Below are positions 1-34,135 of a stretch of DNA of 39,248 nt, piece by piece. The DNA is from Verrucomicrobiota bacterium. Its GTDB lineage: Bacteria; Verrucomicrobiota; Verrucomicrobiia; Chthoniobacterales; UBA10450. Made by a program: the position numbers and the translations under genes. Below the pieces are notes generated by a model. That model made no database searches. It was not told where the DNA came from and worked only from the letters and a program-made list of their open reading frames with translations. Position 1 is the first letter of the stretch; each line of letters begins with the position of its first letter. The stretch spans positions 1-39,248 of the forward strand of contig QHMY01000042.1 in the NCBI GenBank assembly GCA_003218305.1. Reading direction: 5' to 3'.

Positions 1-92
1 ACAAGTTCCCATGATGAAGCGGCAGATAGAACGGTCATTACCAAAACAACAATGAAAATAATCCCTGTCCAGTTGACCGAAAGTGGTAGCAT
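1..92 (-). CDS. Membrane protein, N-terminal part (runs off window)
   Basis: An ATG at 92-90 follows a GGGGG Shine-Dalgarno run that overlaps the stop region of the previous gene. It opens about 30 codons that run off the window edge. The visible N-terminus has a hydrophobic stretch (GIIFIVVLVMTVLSAA) that should span or anchor in the membrane. It is the last visible gene of the 2220-to-1 cassette and continues its run of small membrane proteins. Function is unknown; it could be a signal peptide or anchor of a lysis protein such as an endolysin. The truncation comes from the window and not from the gene. Confidence 0.5.
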   Translation of the reverse strand, partial: MLPLSVNWTGIIFIVVLVMTVLSAASSWEL

Positions 93-100
93 ATAGCCCC

Positions 101-271
101 CTAGAAATTGACTAAGCCGAACGCGCGCACCAAAAACAGGATGAGGATGATGGCGACGATGACCACGATGACCGTCTTGACGGGTTGCGGCAGCGCCATC
201 TGGCCGATGGCCCACAACACGATGTAGGCAATCAGCGCAACTACCAGAACGGTAATCAGCAGACTGATCAT
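101..271 (-). CDS. 56-aa two-helix membrane protein (Thivi_2564-like, holin-like)
   Basis: Starts at ATG 271-269 and stops at TAG 103-101. The protein has two hydrophobic helices (about residues 3-24 and 33-49) joined by a short turn containing LPQPVK. The layout of helix, small turn with P-x-P-x-K, helix and a short FGL-type tail resembles by eye the tiny Thivi_2564 family of bacterial and phage membrane proteins. Its start is 4 bases after the stop of the 91-aa gene, so the two are probably co-translated. In this position a holin or holin regulator is the natural guess, but nothing in the sequence proves pore formation. Confidence 0.65.
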   Translation of the reverse strand: MISLLITVLVVALIAYIVLWAIGQMALPQPVKTVIVVIVAIILILFLVRAFGLVNF

Positions 272-274
272 CGG

Positions 275-550
275 TTAGCCTCCACGGGCGATGCTGCGTG
301 TTTGCGGCGGCGTGCTATCACCACTGGCCCGCACCAACGGCTCGCCATCCTTCGCCGTAGGATTCGCAAGCGGCGTGGTCGTATTGTGCCCGACCAGTGC
401 CACCACCCACGGCGCCAGAACGGTGATCAGCCCCATGATGGCGGCAGATTGCTCCGGCGTCAGATGCACGCCAAAGGCGAGTAGCACGGAGATGACCGCA
501 CCGACAATCGACGTAATGGCGGCAGTTGTAATCAGCGGCATGTTGCTCAT
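275..550 (-). CDS. 91-aa membrane protein, holin candidate
   Basis: Two hydrophobic segments lie in the N-terminal 60 residues (about 6-27 and 37-53). Between them is a short loop with LTPEQSAA, and the roughly 35-residue tail is polar with R and K. This is the size and topology of phage holins with an LTPEQ-type inter-helix loop. The ATG (550-548) overlaps the TGA of the upstream gene by four bases (ATGA), showing translational coupling. Holin is the best guess; a generic phage membrane protein is the alternative. Confidence 0.65.
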   Translation of the reverse strand: MSNMPLITTAAITSIVGAVISVLLAFGVHLTPEQSAAIMGLITVLAPWVVALVGHNTTTPLANPTAKDGEPLVRASGDSTPPQTRSIARGG

Positions 551-1020
551 CGGCTATCACACTCCTGACCCTTGATCTCAAAATGGCGCTCAACAAAGAC
601 GGTGCGCTGCGCCCCTTCCACGTTGCGGGCGGCAAAAGAGCGAATATATTTTCCCGCCGCCAGGTGCGGCACTTGCCACGGTAACTCCTGCAAAAAGGTC
701 GCCGGATGCGGATGCTGCATGTCGGTGAAGGCCGTTTGTGTGCCGACTAGGTTGGCACCGGTTGCGTCGATAGTCGTCAGGTAATAGATGGCGATGATCT
801 CATCGTTGATCGACACTTGGTTGTGTACCGGCACTAACTCACTCCCGCAAAAGACGCCCAACGGCTCCGGGTCAAGACTCTTGATGGCAATCGGCGGAGC
901 GTCGAAATAGACGTTGCGGGCGGCGACAAACAGGATCATCGTCACCACGACCAGCAATTCCATCAGCACGCCCCACAAGGCCATCTCTAAAATGCGGCGT
1001 AGCGGTATGGCGGCAATCAT
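547..1020 (-). CDS. 157-aa membrane-anchored protein with large outer domain
   Basis: One strong hydrophobic helix near the N-terminus (about residues 11-34) is followed by about 120 residues of beta-rich, soluble-looking sequence with two cysteines (FCGS near 58 and QECDSR at the end). This is the topology of a type II membrane protein with an extracytoplasmic domain. The start overlaps the stop of the upstream gene by four bases, and its stop overlaps the next start. I do not recognise a family. A spanin-like or envelope-sensing role would fit the position but is inference. Confidence 0.6.
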   Translation of the reverse strand: MIAAIPLRRILEMALWGVLMELLVVVTMILFVAARNVYFDAPPIAIKSLDPEPLGVFCGSELVPVHNQVSINDEIIAIYYLTTIDATGANLVGTQTAFTDMQHPHPATFLQELPWQVPHLAAGKYIRSFAARNVEGAQRTVFVERHFEIKGQECDSR

Positions 1021-1370
1021 TCGCTCTCTCCGACTTTATCCAGCCCATATTTGCGCCGTAGTCTACTCGCCCGTAGCCGGTCATAAAGCAAAGCGGCAAA
1101 CCAGGCAAAGGCGGCTATCGTGACCAGCGCATTGATGACCAGCCCCGCCACCATCACGGCCTGCGGTGAAAACATCGTAAATTCGGGGATCGAGGCAATG
1201 CGTAACAGCAAAAGCAGCATGACCATCAATAACGTTGTCGCCCCAAACGCCAGATACAGGCGTCTATCCTCCATCCACAGCCCAATACAAAAGGCGATTG
1301 CCAGCCCGTTGATCAGCATAGCGGCGATGTTGGTGACAAGGCGTACCCACGACTGAAACTCAAGATTCAT
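1017..1370 (-). CDS. 117-aa multi-spanning membrane protein
   Basis: The start is placed at ATG 1370-1368 because it overlaps the upstream TGA (ATGA), the coupling used throughout this cassette; a longer frame upstream has no such support. Three or four hydrophobic helices fill residues about 12-100, with a positive C-terminus (RLRRKYG) expected to be cytoplasmic. No family is recognised. It is one of several consecutive membrane proteins following the CHAT-like gene. Confidence 0.65.
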   Translation of the reverse strand: MNLEFQSWVRLVTNIAAMLINGLAIAFCIGLWMEDRRLYLAFGATTLLMVMLLLLLRIASIPEFTMFSPQAVMVAGLVINALVTIAAFAWFAALLYDRLRASRLRRKYGLDKVGESE

Positions 1371-1708
1371 ACGACATGCCCGCCGGTCAACACCCAAAGC
1401 CAGTAGACAATCAGCATGATAAAAATCAGGGTAGCGATAGCGCCTACCGCCAATACCGCATTAAAGAGTTTGTCGTTGGCAGCCTTTGCCGGTGTTGCCG
1501 AGCGGATGAGAATTGCCAACTCGTCAAACTTCTCCTCGGTGTAATTGCGGTTGAGCGTTTGCCCCTCGCTCAGTTGGCGAAACTGGCGATCCATCTCGGC
1601 AGCCTGGCGATCCATCTGCGCCCGCAAGAGAGGCAGGTTGGTTTCGATCACCGTGATGCGCTCGCGCAGCTTGGCGGTGTCCTCGTATGCCCCCCAGCGC
1701 TCGCTCAT
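1367..1708 (-). CDS. 113-aa coiled-coil plus C-terminal TM protein (XhlA-like)
   Basis: An N-terminal soluble coiled-coil-like region (residues about 8-75; LRERITVIETNLPLL and QMDRQAAEMDRQF) is followed by one C-terminal transmembrane helix (about 83-108). This architecture matches XhlA-type haemolysin or holin-accessory proteins and other phage tail-anchored lysis proteins. The ATG overlaps the stop of the CHAT-like gene by four bases. The tail-anchor layout and position support a lysis or membrane-targeting role; family membership is by eye only. Confidence 0.65.
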   Translation of the reverse strand: MSERWGAYEDTAKLRERITVIETNLPLLRAQMDRQAAEMDRQFRQLSEGQTLNRNYTEEKFDELAILIRSATPAKAANDKLFNAVLAVGAIATLIFIMLIVYWLWVLTGGHVV

Positions 1709-2220
1709 GCCGGCGCCTTCGGGTCTAAAAAACGATTCTGAGAGCCGGCTAGATAGATGTAATTCGTGTTATTGCCTGGCTTGCTCCGCTCATAGGCTTG
1801 GCGAAAGTCATCTGATTCGGCCAGCGCCGCTGCCATTAAAGAGCCTGTGCTGTAGGCGCTTAAATCATCCAGGTCGCGCACGGTACACACCACGTCGACT
1901 TGCCCTTCGTTTTGTAGCACTTGCGCTTGGATGAGTGATTGACAAGTGTTGAGATACACGTAAGAGAAACGCCCTCGAATGAGTGCCGCAAGCGCAGGGC
2001 CGTCTACCAAGCCGCTATTGAATTTCCAGCCTTCTGCACCCCCGTGCATCGCTAGCCAGAGCACATCTGCCTTTGTGCGCCGTATTTCACGCAAGAATTC
2101 GGTATAAGTGACATTGCCCAACATCGAACCAACAATTTGCAGACCACTGTTGAGAATGTCCTGCACCTCGTCTGGAACATGACCCAGGTTAGATTTAGGT
2201 GCTACGATGAAGACTCTCAT
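1705..2220 (-). CDS. 171-aa CHAT/caspase-like peptidase
   Basis: The start is placed at ATG 2220-2218 (MRVFIVAP), which has AGGTG eight bases upstream; an in-frame ATG 19 codons earlier adds a tail that does not look coding. The core shows the two catalytic motifs of CHAT (clan CD, caspase-like) peptidases. A hydrophobic strand ends in MHGG (His59), and a second strand ends in YLNTCQS (Cys93). They are separated by the usual DG-x-x-L helix region, and A-Y-x-x-A-type helices follow in the C-terminal third. At 171 residues it is a stand-alone catalytic core without TPR or repeat domains. It heads a run of overlapping membrane-protein genes. Known CHAT proteins cleave partner proteins in bacterial immunity and cell-death pathways; the substrate here is unknown. 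The alternative is a non-peptidase caspase-fold protein. Confidence 0.65.
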   Translation of the reverse strand: MRVFIVAPKSNLGHVPDEVQDILNSGLQIVGSMLGNVTYTEFLREIRRTKADVLWLAMHGGAEGWKFNSGLVDGPALAALIRGRFSYVYLNTCQSLIQAQVLQNEGQVDVVCTVRDLDDLSAYSTGSLMAAALAESDDFRQAYERSKPGNNTNYIYLAGSQNRFLDPKAPA

Positions 2221-2325: not shown

Positions 2326-2997
2326 ATGCAGCCTCAGTTTATCACCCTCTCCAAAAGTGCCAAAGATATTACCGGCCAACGATTCGGCAGATGGATTGCG
2401 CTTGGCCCTATCGGCAAAAACGCAAGACGGGAAATTATTTGGCTTTGCCAATGTGACTGTGGGAACATAGGTCACATTGCCGGCCATTCTTTGACATCGG
2501 GCAACTCTCAGTCGTGCGGCTGCCTGAACATAGACAAGATACGGCACGCCTCTACAACTCACGGCATGTCGCTCACGCCACTGTTCCAGACTTGGTATAA
2601 GATCATCGAACGATGCACTAATCCAAGCAACCGAAACTATCACCAATACGGCGCAAGAGGCATAACAATCTGTGACGAATGGCGGAATAGTTTTTTGGAA
2701 TTTCATAAATATGCCAGTCAACTGGATCACTTTGGTGAAAAAGGTTATAGCATCGACAGAATCAACAATTCTCTTGGCTATCAACCTGAAAATATTCGCT
2801 ATGCCACTCAGCATCAACAAAGCCGCAACAAACGAACTAACGTGATGATTACCCACAGCGGCGAAACAAAGTGCCTGAAAGATTGGGCCAGTTCCGTAAA
2901 TATGAGCGTCGGAACACTCCAGAGACGAATCAAGTTAGGCTGGCCCACAGACAAGGTTCTTACTCAGCGACCACGCAAAATGAACACAACCAAATAA
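2326..2997 (+). CDS. HNH/AP2-type free-standing endonuclease (mobile)
   Basis: ATG at 2326 with AAAGGTGA at 2311-2318. The 223-residue protein has the phage layout DITGQRFGRW, then a Cys cluster (WLCQCDCG ... SCGC), then FQTWYKIIERC and YGARGITICDEW. Next comes an HNH-like segment (IDRINNSLGYQPENIRYAT ... SRNKRTN), and the C-terminus is NUMOD/helix-turn-helix-like (LKDWASSVNMSVGTL). Such genes encode homing-type HNH endonucleases that spread as selfish insertions. It lies alone on the plus strand between two minus-strand units, has its own promoter and is visibly AT-richer than its neighbours. All point to a mobile insertion. Activity is inferred. Confidence 0.8.
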   Translation: MQPQFITLSKSAKDITGQRFGRWIALGPIGKNARREIIWLCQCDCGNIGHIAGHSLTSGNSQSCGCLNIDKIRHASTTHGMSLTPLFQTWYKIIERCTNPSNRNYHQYGARGITICDEWRNSFLEFHKYASQLDHFGEKGYSIDRINNSLGYQPENIRYATQHQQSRNKRTNVMITHSGETKCLKDWASSVNMSVGTLQRRIKLGWPTDKVLTQRPRKMNTTK

Positions 2998-3002
2998 CAA
3001 GA

Positions 3003-3037
3003 ACAAAACAAAAAGCCACACTCAATGGAGTGTGGCT
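3003..3037 (-). terminator. Intrinsic terminator of the replication operon
   Basis: Perfect 9-bp stem (3014-3022 with 3029-3037, AGCCACACT/AGTGTGGCT) with a 6-base loop. On the minus strand it is followed by a T-rich run (TTTTTGTTTTG). It lies just after the last gene of the minus operon (3075-3275) and just past the end of the convergent HNH/AP2 gene, for which it may also slow transcription. Confidence 0.85.
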
Positions 3038-4414: not shown

Positions 4415-4647
4415 GGCGTCACCTCCAACACTTGCCAGCGTCCCTCAAACAGTCCGATAGGCCATTTGGTCGCCCGTCCCAGCATGGCAACGGCGAGTTC
4501 CTTTCTTCGCCCCACCTCTAGCTCTATTACTTCCACAGGCTCGTTGATGACCTCGACATAGCGCCCGCACTGGCGCATCCCATCGAAGTAGGCATAGCAC
4601 GGGCGGTGTGGTGGCAGCTTGCTCCAGTCGGGTTGAATGTCGGTCAT
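4411..4647 (-). CDS. 78-aa hypothetical protein
   Basis: Four-base overlaps at both ends show it belongs to the 5000-to-3452 gene chain. A beta-rich composition with a CYAYFDG segment and alternating hydrophobics (YVEVINEPVEVIELEVG) suggests a small beta-barrel or SH3-like fold. No family is recognised. Confidence 0.6.
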   Translation of the reverse strand: MTDIQPDWSKLPPHRPCYAYFDGMRQCGRYVEVINEPVEVIELEVGRRKELAVAMLGRATKWPIGLFEGRWQVLEVTP

Positions 4648-5000
4648 TTCTTCTTAGCTCCTTTGCTCATTCGATGATTCGTAATTTCGATCAGCCACCC
4701 GCCATTGACCGGGGTTTGGCGCAACGAGATGCCCATTTGCTCGGCGATGCCGACAACTTCTCTGACTTCATCGACTTTAATCAGCCGGTAAAAATAAGGC
4801 GCTAACGGCTCAGGCACTTCCGGCGATAAAAGCTCTATTAGCTGTTCCGAGCGCTTGACGATCTCCTCTTGCAGCACCGGCGTGCATAAATCCATGCGCC
4901 CCGTCACTTTGAGCTTGCCATTGTAGGCACGCAGATGGATGCCCATGCGGAGTAGGTTGGCGTAAAACACCCTTATAGGAAATCCAACATCAAGAGTCAT
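4644..5000 (-). CDS. 118-aa protein with TubC_N-like N-terminal region
   Basis: ATG 5000-4998 with AGGAAGGA upstream. Residues about 13-58 (RMGIHLRAYNGKLKVTG ... LQEEIVKRSEQLIELL) read like the TubC_N docking-domain pattern also found in phage and primase-associated proteins: a short helix, a beta hairpin with NGKL, and a helix ending in LIELL. The rest is a mixed alpha/beta region and a Lys-rich tail. It is the first gene after the iteron region and lies next to the primase gene. A partner-docking role in replication is inference. Confidence 0.6.
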   Translation of the reverse strand: MTLDVGFPIRVFYANLLRMGIHLRAYNGKLKVTGRMDLCTPVLQEEIVKRSEQLIELLSPEVPEPLAPYFYRLIKVDEVREVVGIAEQMGISLRQTPVNGGWLIEITNHRMSKGAKKK

Positions 5001-10694: not shown

Positions 10695-13064
10695 TTACTC
10701 TGCCGGTGTGCCGGCGATCTCATATTCGCTAAAGCGATCGATGCCGTCTTGCAAGTCGGGCATGGCGGGCCACTGGGCGGAGAGTTCAGTCATATCAAAC
10801 AAAGTCGGCGTGCTCTGCTTGACCTCAAGCTCGCGCAGATTCTTGAGCGCAATCGCAAAGTAGGATGGCTTGAGTTCGATGCCGATGCCCTTGCGCCCCA
10901 GCTTGACCGCTGAGTACACCTCGCTGGATACGCCCATGAAGGGCGTCAAGACGGTTTCGCCAGGGTTGGAGTAGAGTTTGATGCAGCGTTCGATAGTGCC
11001 CAGTTGGAGCGGGCATAGATGAAGCTCATCATCCGGGTCACGGGCAGCCTGATACTGGAGCGTGTCGCTCTCGCTGATGCCCGTCCAGATGCCGCCCGCC
11101 CAATCGATCCAGGTTTCATTGTCCATTTCGCCGTTGGCGACGGGCGTTACCGGCACGAGGTTATCGCCTGGCTTGTAAAAGAACAGCACCCGATCCAGGA
11201 TGGCGGGACGGCTGGATGCGCTATCCTTGCGTACCTGCACGAAGAGCAGTGCTTTGCTGTGCGTGCGGATCGCTTGCGCCTGTGGATTCTTGGCAACGAC
11301 GGCATAGCCGTGATAAATCCAGCCGTTCTCTTCATAGGCACGGATGACCTCGCCGGGGAAGTCCTTCATGCCGATGTAGCCGTCTCGACTTGCCATTGCC
11401 GGAATGTCGGCAGTATGGACGCAGGTCAAACGCCCTGGCTTGGTCACGCGCAGGATTTCACGGATGACAAATCCATAGTGACTAAAAAACTCCTCGCTGG
11501 TGCGGCTATTGCCCAAGTCGTGCTCGCTGGCCGAGTAGACATACAGGTTGGCAAACGGCGGCGAATAGACCGAGAGATCGATGCTGTTGTCAGCCAACTC
11601 AGCCAGCCGTTGGCACGAATCGCCCAGCAGCGCCGTCCAGTTATTGCCCTTGACCGTCGTCTCCTGATAGTCAAAAGCGCCCTCTTCATTGCTGTTCAAT
11701 TCTTCCATTTCGTATTTGCTCACATGCCTGATCAGTTGTTCTGACATATCTTTTGCCACGGCCTCCTTGCTCATAATCGTATCGAATACCTCTTGCTCGG
11801 ATTGCGACAGAACGACCCGGATGTTGACCGCATGATGCTGCCCAAAGCGATAACAGCGGCGGATCGCCTGATACCACTCTTCCCACGAATAGGAGAGGCC
11901 GACAAATACCTGGTTGTGGCAGTTCTGAAAATTCATGCCAAAGCCGGCAATCGATACTTTTGTCACCAGCACGCGATACTTGCCGTCCTGAAACGCTTCA
12001 ATCGCCGCCGCTTTATCTTCCGGCGAATCGCTGCCGACCACCTCAATCGATCCTGGAATAAGCCCGGCCATCAGCGCTGATTCATCATTCAGCCCCGTCC
12101 ACACGATCCACTGTTCATCGTTGGCGTTGACCAGATCGGCGGCTGCCCGGCAGCGCAGGTCAAGCGTCTCACGCCGTACCGCCCGCGCCCCGCTCAGACC
12201 ATTCAAGCCGGTAAAGACCAACTGATCGGCGGGCGTATACTGGTAGTCAATCCATACAGGCTTGACATGCAGCGGCGGCAATTCATAGCCGGCGTCATCA
12301 AAGCCGATGTCAGACGGCTTGCGGATTGACATCGCCCACGATGCCATCCAGCGATAGAAGCGCTCCTCGGCGTGATGCTTTAGTCGCCACTCCTGGCCGT
12401 TGTCATTGCCCAACTTGCGGCGCAACTTATAGCCGCCCACCTCGCTGATCGTCTCTTTGTTGGCGTGCACAAAGAACATGGCGAGCATGTCAGACATCTT
12501 GGTGATGCCGAGGAACTCGCTGTGGTTGCCGATCTCGGCACGGTCGTTGGGTGCGGGTGTGGCGGTGCAGGCCAGCTTATAAGGTGTACTGATAAACATC
12601 TCGGTTAGCTTGCGGCGGGTCGAGCTATCCAGTGCCTTGAGGATCGATGACTCGTCGATGACCACGGCGCCAAACTGCGAAGCGTCAAAATGGTCAAGCA
12701 TCTCATAGTTGGTGATCCAGAGTTTATGGTCGCCCATCACTTGTGCCTGACTCCGCACATAGCGCACATCGACATCGATCTTTTGTCCCTCGCGTACCGT
12801 TTGGCGGGCCACTGACAGCGGCGCAATGATCAGCGTCTTTTGCCCCATCAGCCGTGCCCACTCCAACTGGATGCGGGTCTTGCCCAGCCCAGTATCGGCC
12901 AGCACAGCACAGCGTCCCTTGCGACACGCCCAGACAACGATCTGGCGTTGGAAGGCAAAGAGGCCAGGGTGCACATCATCGATAGATATATCCTTGCCCG
13001 CCGAGCCAACGACGATGCGCTTGCTCCTCAGAAATGTTTCGTAGCTTGCTGGCTTGTCGATCAC
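10695..13064 (-). CDS. SNF2-like helicase fused to DNA methyltransferase
   Basis: The GTG start (13064-13062) has GGAGG at good spacing and overlaps the stop of the 39-aa gene; upstream in-frame codons are readthrough of other genes. The product is 789 residues. The N-terminal about 430 residues form a superfamily-2 helicase: GLGKT (59-63), DESS (137-140), CTATPAPND, AGFGMNF and QAIRRCYRFGQ. The C-terminal about 300 residues form an N6-adenine/N4-cytosine methyltransferase in the circularly ordered beta class, with SPPF (about residue 500) before the SAM-binding TPFMGVSSEV (about 710) and KGIGIELKPSYF. Possible roles are protective methylation, anti-restriction or DNA-processing; no restriction nuclease domain is visible. 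Confidence 0.9.
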   Translation of the reverse strand: MIDKPASYETFLRSKRIVVGSAGKDISIDDVHPGLFAFQRQIVVWACRKGRCAVLADTGLGKTRIQLEWARLMGQKTLIIAPLSVARQTVREGQKIDVDVRYVRSQAQVMGDHKLWITNYEMLDHFDASQFGAVVIDESSILKALDSSTRRKLTEMFISTPYKLACTATPAPNDRAEIGNHSEFLGITKMSDMLAMFFVHANKETISEVGGYKLRRKLGNDNGQEWRLKHHAEERFYRWMASWAMSIRKPSDIGFDDAGYELPPLHVKPVWIDYQYTPADQLVFTGLNGLSGARAVRRETLDLRCRAAADLVNANDEQWIVWTGLNDESALMAGLIPGSIEVVGSDSPEDKAAAIEAFQDGKYRVLVTKVSIAGFGMNFQNCHNQVFVGLSYSWEEWYQAIRRCYRFGQHHAVNIRVVLSQSEQEVFDTIMSKEAVAKDMSEQLIRHVSKYEMEELNSNEEGAFDYQETTVKGNNWTALLGDSCQRLAELADNSIDLSVYSPPFANLYVYSASEHDLGNSRTSEEFFSHYGFVIREILRVTKPGRLTCVHTADIPAMASRDGYIGMKDFPGEVIRAYEENGWIYHGYAVVAKNPQAQAIRTHSKALLFVQVRKDSASSRPAILDRVLFFYKPGDNLVPVTPVANGEMDNETWIDWAGGIWTGISESDTLQYQAARDPDDELHLCPLQLGTIERCIKLYSNPGETVLTPFMGVSSEVYSAVKLGRKGIGIELKPSYFAIALKNLRELEVKQSTPTLFDMTELSAQWPAMPDLQDGIDRFSEYEIAGTPAE

Positions 13065-13180
13065 AATCCCCTCCCCAAACTCACATAGTGATGGACGACG
13101 ATGGCGAGCGCCAGCAGCACGGCGATCACGCACAGCGACACGGCGACATAGCCCCAGTCGATTCGTTCGTGGCGGCTCAT
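13061..13180 (-). CDS. 39-aa single-TM microprotein
   Basis: ATG 13180 with AGGAGG about ten bases upstream; it overlaps the stop of the 75-aa gene, and its own TGA overlaps the helicase GTG start. The sequence MSRHERIDWGYVAVS is followed by one transmembrane helix and a HHYVSLGRGL tail. It is translationally coupled to the helicase-methyltransferase. Function unknown. Confidence 0.65.
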   Translation of the reverse strand: MSRHERIDWGYVAVSLCVIAVLLALAIVVHHYVSLGRGL

Positions 13181-13404
13181 AGTTCCATTTCCTCCTGATA
13201 GTCGCCGTTGAGAGCGTCCTTTGCCTTGCGCTCGATAACCGCAATGTCGTCGCGCATCCGTGCCAACAAGGTCATCATGGCTGGGTCTTGGTTGCGTTCC
13301 GCCATTGCCATTGCCTTCTCCCATCGCTTCGATGCGGCCAAACAGCGTGCCGCTATGTCGTAGAGTGCCCATTGCGTCTTATTCGCCAAGCGCGTCTTTT
13401 GCAT
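13177..13404 (-). CDS. 75-aa helical hypothetical protein
   Basis: A basic N-terminus and amphipathic helices (LYDIAARCLAASKRWEKAM, LLARMRDDIAVIERKAKDAL). It overlaps the upstream gene by 26 bases and the downstream ATG by four bases. The start lacks a strong Shine-Dalgarno, so the N-terminus is uncertain. No family recognised. Confidence 0.55.
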   Translation of the reverse strand: MQKTRLANKTQWALYDIAARCLAASKRWEKAMAMAERNQDPAMMTLLARMRDDIAVIERKAKDALNGDYQEEMEL

Positions 13405-13852: not shown

Positions 13853-14764
13853 ATGTCGCCCAATGACCTCCTGGATCGCTTCATCATTTCCAAAGAGGCG
13901 GCAGCTTGTCTCCCCAACACGCTCAGTTGGTATCGGATGTGCATTTCTCGTTATTTGGAGTGGTGTGGCAGTGAAGGGCAGGAATACAAAAAGCCGGATA
14001 CCATTGAGGTGTATCTAGCCAGCCTGCGTAAGCGCAAACTGGCATCCTCTACGGTATCCGGCTATTTCACGGCGTTGACCGCCTGGTTTACCTGGGCGTA
14101 TCAGCGTGATTACATTTCAGACAATCCTCTGCGTCACATCCAAAAACCCAAGATGATTAAGCGCATCAAGAATCGAGTGCCCAAAAGCGACTTTGACCAA
14201 CTGTATGCCTCAATCGCCGTCAACAAGTGGAGTGACCAGCGCGACCGCTGCATCTTGCTCGTCATGTTCTACAGCGGTTTGCGTGTGACCGAAACTATCT
14301 CACTACTGCCCACCGATGTTGACCTAGACGACCAGATGATTTTTGTCCGGCGTGGCAAAGGTGATAAGCCGCGCCCCGTCCCCTGCCACCCCTCGCTTGC
14401 TATCGAATTGCCTATCTACTATGAGATGCGTCCGGCCTTTTGCTCAGAGACACTTTTTGTCGCCAACGATGGGCATGGGCGGGTGCGTGGGCCACTGAGC
14501 GCCGCCGGTGTACGAATGATCTTCATGCGCCGCTTTGCCAATGCCGGGCTGCCTTACCGCAATCCCCACGCCTTTCGTCATGCCTTTGCAATGGAGTTTC
14601 TCAATGGCGGAATGGAGATAAGCGCAGTGGCGGCGGCGCTGGGTCATGCGTCGGTTAAGACGACTGAAAGCGAGTATGCTCACTGGCTGACGGCTGGGCT
14701 AAAACGGGAATACACCGAGGCGTTGAAACGAGTGTCGCCTGAGGCGACTGTGCCAAAGGGATGA
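13853..14764 (+). CDS. int: Tyrosine recombinase (phage integrase)
   Basis: 303 residues with AAGGA seven bases before ATG. The N-terminal SAM-like core-binding domain spans residues about 1-95 and the catalytic domain about 105-295. All active-site residues are present: Arg144 (SGLRVTE), Lys169 (RRGKGDK), His239 and Arg242 (HAFRH), His265 (LGHASVKTT) and the nucleophile Tyr275 (ESEYAHW). It should recombine the attP found 26 bases after its stop with a host tRNA-Lys gene. No long arm-binding N-terminus is seen, so it may be a simple recombinase. Excisionase was not identified. Confidence 0.95.
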   Translation: MSPNDLLDRFIISKEAAACLPNTLSWYRMCISRYLEWCGSEGQEYKKPDTIEVYLASLRKRKLASSTVSGYFTALTAWFTWAYQRDYISDNPLRHIQKPKMIKRIKNRVPKSDFDQLYASIAVNKWSDQRDRCILLVMFYSGLRVTETISLLPTDVDLDDQMIFVRRGKGDKPRPVPCHPSLAIELPIYYEMRPAFCSETLFVANDGHGRVRGPLSAAGVRMIFMRRFANAGLPYRNPHAFRHAFAMEFLNGGMEISAVAAALGHASVKTTESEYAHWLTAGLKREYTEALKRVSPEATVPKG

Positions 14765-18410: not shown

Positions 18411-18446
18411 AGCCGCTCCCCATCTGCGAGAGCGGCTTTTCTTTTA
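18411..18446 (+). terminator. Intrinsic terminator of the early plus operon
   Basis: An 8-bp perfect stem AGCCGCTC/GAGCGGCT (18411-18418 with 18430-18437), 11-base loop, followed by TTTTCTTTT. It separates the early operon from the convergent fibre gene, whose stop (18444-18446) overlaps the T-run. No T-run follows the stem on the minus strand. Confidence 0.9.
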
Positions 18447-21371
18447 CCTAAACACAATATAGCTGATCACCCGTGACGCCCCGCGCCGGTTCTCAAAGTA
18501 AATCTTGCCATCCGTGCCCACGCTCACCGTAAACTTGGTATCTGTCCCCGTCGTGCCGGCCAGTGCGCCTGTCGTGGCGTTGGTGTTGGAGAGCGCCGAG
18601 ATCGCCGTGCAGTTGGGCGTCGCCGTGCCCCGAAAGCCAAACAGCCCGCCCACCGTCGCCTCGGATGCCGTTGTGCAGTAGAAGGCAAAGAAGCCGACCG
18701 CCGCCGCCCCAGGGTCATAGGTCGCCACGTTATCATCGGCAATCGTAAAGCCGCCGGTCAAAAAGGCGTCCGCCACTACTCTCTCCGCCGTCTGTTGACT
18801 CCCCGCCCAGGTATTCGATGCGCTCAGCGAGCCGTAGATCGTGTCAAAATAGGTCTGCAAATACGCTTTGAAGTTTGTCCCCGTCACGCCCTTAAAGACA
18901 TTTGACGCCTCACTATCCACCAATACCACGCTATCGGCGTTGACCGGCGTGGTTTTGGCGGTCAGCGATGCGATGTTGGTGCTATCCAGCGTCTTGTTGG
19001 TCAGCGTCGTCGCCAAACTATCATAGTACGTTTTGATGGCGGCTTTGAGGTTGGCCCACGTCAATTTCTTGAGCACGTTGCTCGCCGCACTGTCGATCAG
19101 CCCCAACTCATCGGCATCGACAGGCGTTGTCTTGCCGGTGGCAGCGTGGATGTACTGGGCGAGCACGGTCGTGATGTCATTGTCTGCCGGGTCAGCGGTC
19201 GAGCCGGTGATATTCGACTTGACGGTATTCGCCGCCATGTTCGCTGCTTTAGCGTTGGTCACGGCGTCGTTGGCGATGGTCGTGGCGTTGCCGTTGGCCG
19301 AGGCCGTCACGTCGCCGGTCAAGGCAGCCCGCTGCAAATTGCCGCTGCCATCCATCGACAATGACGCACCGAGCAGGATATTCTCCGGGTCGCCGCTGGA
19401 TGCCGTATCACGCCCCACTAAGCTGTCCGTGGCGATATTCTGCATCTTGGCAAAGGTCACGGCGTCGTTGGCTATTGTGGTAGCGTTACTACCTGTAAAA
19501 GCCGTCACGTCCCCGGTTAGCGCCGCTCGCCGCAAGAATTGAGCGCCATTCATTTCGAGCGTAGCGTTAAGCTGGATTACTTCCGGGTCGCCCGTTCCAG
19601 CCGTGTCTCTGCCCAGCAGCGTGCCGGTGGCGATATTTTGCAGCTTGGCAAAGGTCACGGCATCATCGGCAAGTCCCGCCGTTGCCACCGTGCCAAAGCT
19701 GATGGCGCTGCCACTCTCACGCAGGACTGCCCCACTCGCCGCACTCGCCGCAATATCCGCCGGGTCGCCGCTGGTGTTGGCCGAGCGCCCGATCACCGAC
19801 AAGGCGCCGCTGTCGCGCAGTTTGGTATCGCTCACGGCGTTGGCGGCGATGGTCGTGGCGCCGTCGGCAACGCTGGTCACGTCGCCGCTGTGGTTGGGAT
19901 GCACGTAGAGATTGTAGAGCGTGTCAAAATACGTCTTGAGCGTCGCCTTGACATTCGCCCAGGTTAACTTTTTGAGCACATTTGACGCTGCCGTATCCAC
20001 CAAGCCAAGCTCATCGGCGTCTATCGGCGTGGTTTTGCCGGTGGCGCCGTGTATCTCGGCGGCAATGTCGGCGGCATCACCATCCGCCCCTGGCACGCCC
20101 TGCGGCCCCTGGATCGTGCCGACATTCTCCCATGACGCCCCATTCCACACGTAGAGATCGCCGTCCACCATATAGGCGTCGCCTGGCGAGCCGGTTGGGT
20201 GCGCCGCTTCCAAGTCTTCCACCGTGGCATACGAGCCGAGGATCGTAACGCTTGTGCCATCCGCACCATCCGCACCTGGATCACCTTGCGGCCCGGTATC
20301 GCCTTGCGGCCCGACCAGCGACGCCAGCCAAGCTATCTCATCGCCCACAAAGCCCTCACCGACCGCTATCTCATAGGCGCTGTCGCCATCGGCGCCGGTC
20401 GTGCCGCTGATCGAAAACACCAATCGCATCGGCGTATTGTTGGGGATCGTGCCACTAAAGGCCAGCGCATCGACGTTAAAGTTAGACGATACGCTAAAAT
20501 CCTGAAAGCCGGTGACTTTGAAGACCGCCCAGATGCTGGGGTCTGATTCGTGCTGAAAATAGAGCGTAGCCCGCCAGTCATCCGATCCGTATTGAGCGAT
20601 GGCCTGCACCAAGTCCGTGATGTCATCGGCGTTGGCGTCCACATAGGAGATGCCGACGGTCGTTGCCGAGGCAAAGGCGGTATTATTGGTCGCCCACTTG
20701 CCGGATGCGACTTCGCCCGCCACCGTGCTGGTGGTCGTATAGAGCAGCGCCACACCAACGGTAACGCCATCATCGCCGGCGGCGCCGGTTGCGCCTGTAG
20801 CACCCGTTGAACCAGTAGCCCCGGTTGTCCCTGTAGCGCCTTGAATGCCCTGGATGCCCTGAATACCCTGTGCACCCGTAGCGCCCGTGCTACCCGTAGC
20901 TCCCGTTGGGCCAGTTGGCCCGGTGTCACCGACCAGCGATGCTAACCACGCCGCCTCGTCGCCCTCAAAGCCGTTGGTGACGGCGATCTCATAGGCGCTG
21001 TCGCCATCCACGCCAGCCACGCCCGGCTCACCCTGCGGCCCGTCATCGCCCTTATCGCCCTTATCGCCTTTGGCGCCGGTCGCACCTGTCGCGCCGGTTG
21101 CCCCGGTTGCGCCAGTTGGCCCGGTGTCACCTTGCGGCCCTTGTGCGCCCGATGCCACGACAAACTCCAGCCCATCCTCGGCATCATTGACCGCGACGAA
21201 ATAGCCGCCGTAGCCATCGTAGCTATCCGGCGTATCGTCCAGCGCCAAAAAGTCGCCTGCCCCTGGCTCGCCAGGTACAACGATGGGATCGCCGGATGCG
21301 GTAATCGTGCCGACCAGCGCCGAGGAGTTGGCAAGCGTCCCGCTGAGTGTCACCGGGTTATCAAGCGGCAT
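18444..21371 (-). CDS. 975-aa collagen-like tail fibre
   Basis: The ATG overlaps the upstream TAA (TAATG) with GGAGG before it. Gly-X-Y collagen runs occupy residues about 75-124 and 148-202, with shorter ones near 345-375 and 415-430. The module GDSAYEIAV ... GDE-x-AWLASLVG is repeated between runs. From about 440 to 880 there is a series of repeated units (VLKKLTWAN-x-[23 protein letters not shown]-x-x-GDPE), typical of trimeric phage fibres. The C-terminal about 90 residues are a distinct beta-rich domain and the likely receptor-binding tip. It is the last gene of the late operon. Repeated sequence makes it prone to recombination and host-range variation. Confidence 0.88.
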
Positions 21372-32784: not shown

Positions 32785-33348
32785 TTACACGCGCTCTCTG
32801 TGGGCTTGCTCAGGCTTGCCCAGGCCGATTTGCTGCACCCTGGAGGCGATCACGTTGTACCAGCGGATGTTGTAATGGGCGGCGAAGATGCTGGCGATAA
32901 AACTGAAATCGCCAGCATAGTCGGCGCTAAAATACTTGGCGTGCGCTTGCCACACTTCCCGCCGTACCACGTAGGCGCTGCATCCGATGTCGCCTTGTAC
33001 GGGACGCTTGCCCCATGACTTGTTGGGCAGAATGCCGCGCGGCCCATGATCCATCTTGACCATGATCACGTCTGGGTTGTGCGCCTCGGTAATGTCCAGC
33101 AGGTCGTTATAGAAGGTTGGGCGAATGCACAGGTCGTCATCGTCCAGTATCCAGATATATAGCCCCTCTAGATTGGGCGCGTAGGCTGCCATGTTGGTGT
33201 AGCTCCATCCAATGCCGCGCCCCACATCGTCGGGCAAGAAGGTGTGCCGCAGCCAAGCCCCCTTGAGCATTTCGATGCTGGCGCGGTTGTGGCGTAGCAG
33301 ATGCGGTCTGCGATAGCACCTTGTCAGCACCTCAAGAAACGGCGGCAA
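32785..33348 (-). CDS. GT-A type glycosyltransferase, copy 2
   Basis: TTG start at 33348 with AAGGGGG seven bases before it. The 187-residue protein begins PFLEVLTRCYRRPHLL, the nucleotide-sugar-binding start of GT-A (GT2-like) enzymes. IWILDDDDLC (Asp69-72) forms the metal-binding acidic motif. It is shorter than most GT2 enzymes, so a compact or partial fold. It overlaps the first glycosyltransferase gene by 17 bases. A virion or host-envelope target is inferred. Confidence 0.75.
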   Translation of the reverse strand: MPPFLEVLTRCYRRPHLLRHNRASIEMLKGAWLRHTFLPDDVGRGIGWSYTNMAAYAPNLEGLYIWILDDDDLCIRPTFYNDLLDITEAHNPDVIMVKMDHGPRGILPNKSWGKRPVQGDIGCSAYVVRREVWQAHAKYFSADYAGDFSFIASIFAAHYNIRWYNVIASRVQQIGLGKPEQAHRERV

Positions 33349-34135
33349 CTTGCGCCCCCTTGCTCATATTGGTGATGGTGGCGTAGCCCAAGCGATTCAA
33401 CGTCTCGGCGCGGTCGATGGGCATACTGTAATAGCTGCCCTTCTTCATCGGCTTTTCGATACCGTGAAAGCCGGTTGGCGCATCCCTGAGCGCCAACACA
33501 CGCCCGATGATGCTATCGGTCACAAAAGGCCAGAGCACCGTGCCATCTTCCTTGATATGCCCGCACAGCACATCGAAACGGGCGATCTGTTCGACGCCGC
33601 GCGAGATACAGTCGCCGGCAAAACCGACATCGCCGGCATCGTCCTTGTCTTTGCTGCGAATCGAGATGCGCTCCAGCACCGCACGGCGGATCAGCGTGCA
33701 GCCCCAACCGACGCCGCCCACTTTGCCCCATCCCTGGCGGCGATATTCTGCGACCTCATTCGGGTACATGCTGAGTGTGCAGCCCGTCGCTCGCTTGTCT
33801 TTGTAGCGCCAGGCGTTGAGCGTGGGCGTACCATGCCGCAGCAGATAGACGCCATAGACGACTTGCCCGTGCGACGCATAGAGCTTTTGGATGGCGTCGG
33901 GCGGCAAGATCATGTCATCCTCGACGGTTAACATGGCGTCATGTTTACTCGCCAGGAATAGCTCGCGCGCCCGCTGGTACTGGGCGATGACATTGCGGAT
34001 TTTGTCGCCAGGGTAGGGGTTGTGATAGCCCACTTCCCAGACGTACTCAATATCGGTCTGTTGCGCTTCGATGCTCGCCTTTGTCTCTGGGCGGAGTTGA
34101 TCGCCGATGGTCGGTGTGAAGACGAAGATGCTCAT
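33332..34135 (-). CDS. GT-A type glycosyltransferase, copy 1
   Basis: 267 residues, starting MSIFVFTPTIGDQLRPETKA, with the acidic motif LTVEDDMILPP (Glu72, Asp73, Asp74), YGVYLLRHG, and GGVGWGCTLIRRAVLE, a typical acceptor-side loop of GT-A enzymes. The C-terminal part has GHIKEDGTVLWPF. It lies in the late operon between head-closure and neck genes, together with a second glycosyltransferase. This suggests glycosylation of virion proteins or of the host surface during lytic growth. Confidence 0.8.
   Translation of the reverse strand: MSIFVFTPTIGDQLRPETKASIEAQQTDIEYVWEVGYHNPYPGDKIRNVIAQYQRARELFLASKHDAMLTVEDDMILPPDAIQKLYASHGQVVYGVYLLRHGTPTLNAWRYKDKRATGCTLSMYPNEVAEYRRQGWGKVGGVGWGCTLIRRAVLERISIRSKDKDDAGDVGFAGDCISRGVEQIARFDVLCGHIKEDGTVLWPFVTDSIIGRVLALRDAPTGFHGIEKPMKKGSYYSMPIDRAETLNRLGYATITNMSKGAQVAAVS

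Follow-up and report, generated by a model that had tools for sequence, protein, structure and literature searches.

A protein of 171 amino acids (aa) encoded near one end of a 39,248-nt contig is a CHAT domain (clan CD, caspase-like), and its gene heads a run of genes for small membrane proteins. The stretch of DNA analyzed (the window) is the entire contig C200 of a Verrucomicrobiota assembly (3.6 Mb, 285 contigs). Its major head protein, major tail protein, tape measure and replication helicase/primase match PHROG families, so the contig is a piece of a tailed phage; the first-pass annotation had likewise spoken of a phage. Since the window is the whole contig and no overlap was found between its ends, the CHAT operon is incomplete. 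A second copy of the CHAT gene lies in a distant relative, a 51,337-base IMG/VR record (loci L146 and L230) referred to below as the cousin phage. The CHAT identity follows from three lines of evidence: a score of 42.2 bits with a profile of relatives, a predicted model that resembles SAVED-CHAT, and conservation of the His/Asn-x-Cys residues.

At the sequence level, homology to CHAT proteins beyond chance was reached only through relatives. The score given above was obtained with a profile of eight relatives from which the window protein had been left out (E 3.6e-15, Z=1). The best of 1000 shuffled versions reached 3.8 bits, and the 44 other window proteins all fell outside the eight best scores printed. 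A profile of the phage pair (window and cousin) was aligned with a CHAT profile built from relatives of the assembly, for which 19 of 28 domains had been kept (no stop, His/Cys pattern, more than 200 aa); hhalign returned a probability of 93.7 and an E-value of 2e-7. In a phmmer comparison with the 7296 open reading frames (ORFs) of 81 viral loci, the cousin protein came first (E 4.6e-4) and the next match stood at E 5.4. A haloarchaeal plasmid protein, from the one record retrieved by a plasmid search with the window protein, is a further relative (tblastn E 0.06, 29% over 80% of the query).

A number of results weigh against this identification. Taken alone, the 171-aa protein had no match in Pfam, NCBIfam or PADLOC and no significant match in PHROGs; for Pfam, the HMMER filters drop most weak matches. 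It did not pass the curated cut-off of the CHAT family PF12770 (clan CD), for which no match was listed. The CHAT profile derived from relatives of the assembly gave it 2.4 bits, and 4 of 1000 shuffles scored higher. No CHAT chain turned up when the PDB was searched by sequence, whether the query was the window protein, the cousin protein or the pair. Moreover, the eight relatives had been gathered using the window protein or its cousin, and this choice lies outside the shuffle control.

The fold was examined in AlphaFold2 models. The single-sequence model was poor (predicted local distance difference test, pLDDT, 59.5), with SAVED-CHAT chains (8tl0) at PDB ranks 1 to 4. The model made from a seven-row alignment had a pLDDT of 76.2 and a predicted template modeling score (pTM) of 0.77, and its PDB ranks 1 to 5 were all SAVED-CHAT 8tl0 (E 5e-8 to 6e-6, TMq 0.63-0.69). 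A coral caspase, caspases 1, 3, 6 and 7, MALT1 and separase were among the 50 PDB matches listed for this model. Below rank 5, however, many alpha/beta folds outside clan CD were intermixed, pyridoxal kinases first. Judged from the model, the predicted fold of the 171-aa protein is caspase-like, of clan CD, and the unrelated fold that would have contradicted the first-pass annotation was not seen. The likeness to SAVED-CHAT is one of fold: the 8tl0 chains are 473-479 residues long and carry a SAVED part, whereas the phage protein is a 171-aa core accompanied by membrane partners. No sensor domain (TPR or SAVED) was matched in the window or the cousin CHAT protein; in the former, 171 aa leave no room beyond the core.

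Two alignments, the second of which took three of five haloarchaeal rows, show His59, Asn91 and Cys93 unchanged in all of their rows (7 of 7 in each). The His/Cys pair named by the first-pass annotation is thus kept in each aligned relative and, as read from the sequence, the predicted catalytic pair of the CHAT core is in place. These residues also bear on the idea that the protein is a non-catalytic scaffold, its CHAT fold binding partners at the membrane. Catalytic activity is predicted only and, because there are only two phage copies, conservation of the pair is thinly sampled; but His and Asn-x-Cys are kept in every distant relative aligned, and we regard such a scaffold as quite improbable.

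The gene block agrees in its layout with what the first-pass annotation had described. The ORF of the stand-alone CHAT-like peptidase was confirmed, with its motifs LAMHGG (MHGG, His59) and YLNTCQS (Cys93), as were the six membrane-protein genes that follow it and the four 4-base overlaps. The sequence AGGTGAT stands a short way 5' of the ATG at 2220, and an alternative in-frame TTG at 2277 would give a 190-aa version. Hydropathy analysis placed no membrane segment in the CHAT ORF and at least one strong segment in each of the six partners (1, 3, 1, 2, 2 and at least 1, in gene order). The first four junctions overlap by exactly 4 bases, the last two are gaps of 3 and then 8 bases, and the sixth gene is cut by the contig end. 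Coordinates are collected in Table 1.

Table 1. Features of the CHAT block and of other parts of the window.
Feature	Coordinates	Strand	Basis
CHAT-like peptidase, 171 aa, His59 and Cys93	1705..2220	-	CHAT fold of model; 42.2 bits to relatives' profile
113 aa, one C-terminal membrane segment after a part that is coiled-coil-like by inspection	1367..1708	-	overlaps CHAT by 4 bases
117 aa, three membrane segments	1017..1370	-	hydropathy
157 aa, N-terminal membrane segment, then about 115 aa	547..1020	-	hydropathy
91 aa, two membrane segments, holin-like	275..550	-	PHROG 9752 holin, E=1e-4
56 aa, two membrane segments, Thivi_2564-like	101..271	-	NF041949 match
Further gene, 30 codons seen, one membrane segment, cut at contig end	1..92	-	ATG at 92
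HNH endonuclease gene	2326-2997	+	PHROG 374, E 2.8e-63
Terminator-like hairpin, 10 pairs and T-rich tail	3014..3037	-	sequence scan
Helicase joined to DNA methyltransferase	10695-13244	-	PHROG matches

Few of the partners could be assigned to a family. The first-pass annotation had spoken of a holin-like block; for the 91-aa protein this comes from a single match, in PHROGs and in no other library scanned. The 56-aa protein matched NF041949 at E=1.9e-5 with 24.6 bits, below the cut-off of 33. No confident family was found for the 117-aa protein in the Pfam, PHROGs and NCBIfam scans, and none was listed for the 157-aa protein in Pfam or PHROGs. The defence library gave no confident match for the six complete block proteins, CHAT included. 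No gasdermin match was found among the five complete partners in Pfam and the defence library, whose gasdermin models were not checked.

The block has some resemblance to a lysis module. In phage lysis modules of the XhlA/XhlB type, a coiled-coil-like, C-terminally anchored protein lies near a holin-like protein with two membrane segments. The window block too has a coiled-coil-like anchored protein near a two-segment holin-like protein. It differs in that no XhlA match was listed for the 113-aa protein in Pfam (where, again, the filters remove most weak matches), no endolysin was seen and a protease heads the block. The missing endolysin counts against a role in lysis: none was present among the 31 of the 45 listed window proteins that were scanned against Pfam or PHROGs, in a contig that ends inside the operon.

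The cousin phage was found by a tblastn search of the 45 window proteins against 80 helicase loci and locus L002. The loci derive from a search with the helicase/methyltransferase, which has relatives in 139 viral stretches and hence is a good marker for cousin phages; 80 loci were kept. No other of these records matches the helicase as well as the cousin (75% identity). At E≤1e-3, one of the 80 loci (L146) had a CHAT relative and L002 had none; the cousin CHAT is 25% identical to the window CHAT (tblastn E 6e-5). The cousin terminase, portal and major head protein match PHROG families, and its genes for the scaffold, two further structural-region proteins and the helicase match window genes. 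The major head proteins of the two phages belong to the same PHROG family; a search for relatives of the window's head protein found none, and one with its primase found a single distant record.

The cousin CHAT protein has 245 aa: the CHAT core is followed by a stretch that is coiled-coil-like by inspection and, at residues 222-240, by a C-terminal membrane segment. Its match to Pfam CHAT (E=2e-4, 21.4 bits) falls below the cut-off of 24. The gene order is a 70-aa membrane gene, a 117-aa coiled-coil/membrane gene, CHAT, a 59-aa gene and a gene for a 213-aa membrane protein. The two genes 5' of CHAT encode one C-terminal membrane segment each, and the 59-aa gene begins directly after the CHAT stop codon. 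The 59-aa protein had no NCBIfam match and is homologous to the window's 56-aa protein (42% over 33 residues, E 5.8e-5). Thus CHAT, a membrane segment and a 56-aa-type gene recur in a second phage. An element built like the 113-aa window protein is fused to CHAT in the cousin and, since that fused protein comprises core, coiled-coil-like stretch and anchor, the two overlapping window genes (CHAT, and coiled coil plus anchor) have the build of one cousin polypeptide. The likeness of the anchors is one of build.

Other features of the cousin do not favor a conserved module. The 113-aa protein had no match at E≤1 in the cousin record and did not align with the cousin's 117-aa coiled-coil protein. 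The 117-, 157- and 91-aa proteins found chance-level matches there (best E 0.85, 0.098 and 0.38, respectively), so that the holin-like gene is not common to the two phages. At the sequence level, CHAT is known from these two phages only. Finally, the position of the block differs: apparently before the head genes in the window, if the genome is circularly permuted, and after the tail spike in the cousin. A lack of linkage to membrane genes, which would have spoken against the first-pass annotation, was not seen, as membrane genes flank the one other phage copy found. Four of the window's genes (113, 117, 157 and 91 aa) are not recognizably shared. In conclusion, the membrane association of the phage CHAT recurs, in two phages only.

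The surroundings of the cousin copy also argue against a virion or prohead maturation protease. By gene order, the window CHAT would sit upstream of the head genes in a circularly permuted genome, a location fitting such a role. However, the cousin copy has a membrane segment and follows a tail-spike-like gene, and its block is distant from the portal and terminase genes in the record as deposited. A maturation function is very improbable. No endolysin was found among the seven genes scanned in the region of the cousin block.

Searches for further relatives gave little. With the window CHAT, 21 pattern stretches in viral contigs and 122 in genome contigs yielded no relative, and four records at E 7-9 in the 50,697-record phage collection (H1 and H2 inspected) included none that was convincing. 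Its own contig was the only match among 387 genomes of the phylum. In 286 genomes of the class, 41 had a match at E≤1 (own included), the best other at E 0.03; when 29 weak class loci were read for the His...Cys pair by regular expression, few frames fitted and none was convincing. A codon-level motif scan of viral contigs produced 77 stretches which, together with three earlier loci, contained 17 motif ORFs including the window's own; phmmer found no relative among them. The two-row profile matched only the cousin in viral contigs and, in the 387 phylum genomes, its own contig plus three matches at E 0.005-0.008. It matched none of 45 whole records (44 of the 80 loci, and L002), a search run without first-look candidates, whose empty answer is uninformative. 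The cousin record was searched whole and the other 35 helicase loci as locus stretches only. The cousin protein found only itself in viral contigs, and in phage records nothing at E≤1 and one match at E 8.

A structure search of BFVD (E≤0.001) was more productive. It returned A0A1P8DJ94 (E 9.4e-11, organism not given) and A0A8S5MXG5 of Myoviridae sp. ctWaE18 (E 5.2e-7), both with the same predicted fold. On the strength of these models the two may be further cases. With these two more likely viral cases, the phage CHAT kind is rare but not unique. One apparent case was rejected: MT838002.1 (L244), the one phage record hit by a longer, bacterial CHAT domain and deposited under the label 'UNVERIFIED: Bacteriophage sp.', has ORFs that on inspection read as a bacterial chromosome fragment; its CHAT protein lies near a subtilase-like gene.

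Bacterial relatives are larger proteins. Two Haliscomenobacter plasmid proteins, one of them annotated as CHAT domain-containing, match the cousin CHAT domain at E 6e-4 and 1e-5. Their N-terminal CHAT domains have the same His...Asn-x-Cys core as the phage protein, in polypeptides much longer than it (about 550 aa and more than 990 aa read), one with TPRs. With one of these domains as query, nothing was found in phage records at E≤0.1 or in viral contigs; the other had its only match at E 3 in phage records. On one Haliscomenobacter plasmid (L235, 2420-5402), genes for a CHAT protein, a MoxR ATPase and a SUMF1-type protein are consecutive and resemble a conflict system.

Characterized CHAT proteases offer an analogy for function. 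In PMC9729208, the TPR-CHAT protein of Craspase (type III-E CRISPR), with catalytic pair H585/C627, is described as inactive until target RNA binds; in PMC10028731, Csx29 (pair H615/C658) is reported to cut Csx30 at a single site. The phage protein resembles both in having a CHAT core with a His/Cys pair, and a single cut in one partner is the mode of action proposed for it too. It differs in having no matched TPR and in that membrane genes take the place of the RNA-guided complex. PMC12881547 reports that a TPR-CHAT protease activates gasdermin in Podospora anserina. Here the likeness is the idea, as presented there, of a CHAT cut arming a membrane-damaging partner; the difference is that the phage partners are short proteins with membrane segments, without a gasdermin match among the five complete ones.

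These comparisons lead us to a tentative proposal, which we think possible and favor: a membrane-tethered CHAT protease cuts a membrane partner and so triggers or times membrane damage or lysis. The first gene would encode a minimal CHAT-type cysteine endopeptidase of a tailed phage, tethered to the inner membrane of the host by an anchor that combines a coiled coil with a C-terminal segment. In the window phage this anchor would be the product of a separate overlapping gene; in the cousin it would belong to the CHAT polypeptide itself. The 113-aa protein would bind CHAT, which would be co-produced with small membrane proteins, the holin-like one among them. If the phage CHAT acts as other CHAT proteases do, it would cut one specific partner at one site, most likely one of the co-encoded membrane proteins. 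Membrane damage would be released or activated as a result, and CHAT would serve as a trigger or timer of lysis. Proteolysis itself, its substrate, the signal, the timing (late expression) and the role in lysis are all steps that we infer; it counts against the proposal that late expression is assumed only and proteolytic activity predicted only.

Alternatively, the phage CHAT could serve counter-defence by cutting or titrating, at the membrane, a host immune component such as a partner of host CHAT systems. Canonical CHAT proteins are indeed frequent in the assembly's relatives (16 of 39 related genomes, own included), and other CHAT proteases act in immunity, as presented in PMC12881547, PMC9729208 and PMC10028731. 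However, the catalytic pair, needless for a pure decoy, is in place, the operon partners are membrane proteins and not evident inhibitors, and binning of the contig with that host is unproven. We consider counter-defence unlikely.

Superinfection exclusion, or a phage-borne abortive defence in which a membrane-bound sensor-protease kills or blocks the cell upon entry of a second phage, would account for the membrane association combined with a protease type known from cell-death systems (PMC12881547 and PMC9729208). It would also suit a CHAT gene that heads its own gene run, divergent from the HNH gene. We consider such a system unlikely as well, given that neither copy matched a sensor domain and that the holin-like gene suits lysis at least equally.

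The remainder of the window provides the phage context. The HNH gene separates early genes from the opposite-strand CHAT operon, as if inserted. The hairpin next to it may terminate an early operon upstream of the CHAT block; it is only suggestive, as 4 terminator-like sites were seen in the window versus 3.9 expected from shuffles. A 303-aa protein (13853-14764, plus strand) is, by inspection only, a candidate tyrosine recombinase, and a temperate lifestyle is possible for this phage. Scanning the window for Rfam families and tRNAs gave nothing. Two genes at 32785-34135 (minus strand) lie within the structural region; the 267-aa product of one of them weakly resembles glycosyltransferase 2 (E 0.006, short of the cut-off), and the cousin phage encodes a counterpart of it (E 5e-31). 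A 975-aa fibre-like protein with collagen-type repeats is encoded at 18444-21371 (minus strand; Pfam Collagen E 1.5e-20). A 118-aa protein (4644-5000, minus strand) has a TubC_N docking-domain-like match (22.3 bits versus the Pfam cut-off of 26, E 1.5e-4), which is odd for a phage.

The same assembly was searched for the missing terminase piece with phrog_2, a family listed without a function. Stretches were obtained from three contigs and no window protein was matched at E≤0.01; phrog_2 also matched 11 of 14 control genomes. One of the loci, L240 on contig C268, has a PHROG 2 match in a 486-aa ORF, its other ORFs being phage-like by inspection. The assembly bin may contain several phage contigs.

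Altogether, the interpretation offered by the first-pass annotation is upheld in its core, a complete CHAT/clan CD domain with membrane genes by the copy in a second, distant phage as well, and weaker in its holin-like element, which comes from a single PHROG match. The annotation's statement that a phage version has no described role also agrees with a literature text search, in which no paper listed concerned a phage-encoded CHAT protease. Work on CHAT and caspase-like proteases has dealt mainly with their use by hosts as weapons against phages. A bare CHAT core with its catalytic pair, carried by a phage and tied to membrane proteins, reverses that picture. It would be a switch that sets off phage lysis by proteolysis, an answer of the phage to caspase-type immunity, or an exclusion system that the phage carries. 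It is doubtful, if conceivable, that the phage took a caspase-type protease from the immune world as a lysis trigger, the tethered CHAT core arming the pore by cutting a co-encoded membrane protein, as a viral counterpart of caspase-gasdermin pyroptosis. The gene run in the window and the fusion of CHAT to a membrane anchor in the cousin hint that a caspase-type cut may control how a virus breaks or protects the membrane of its host cell.

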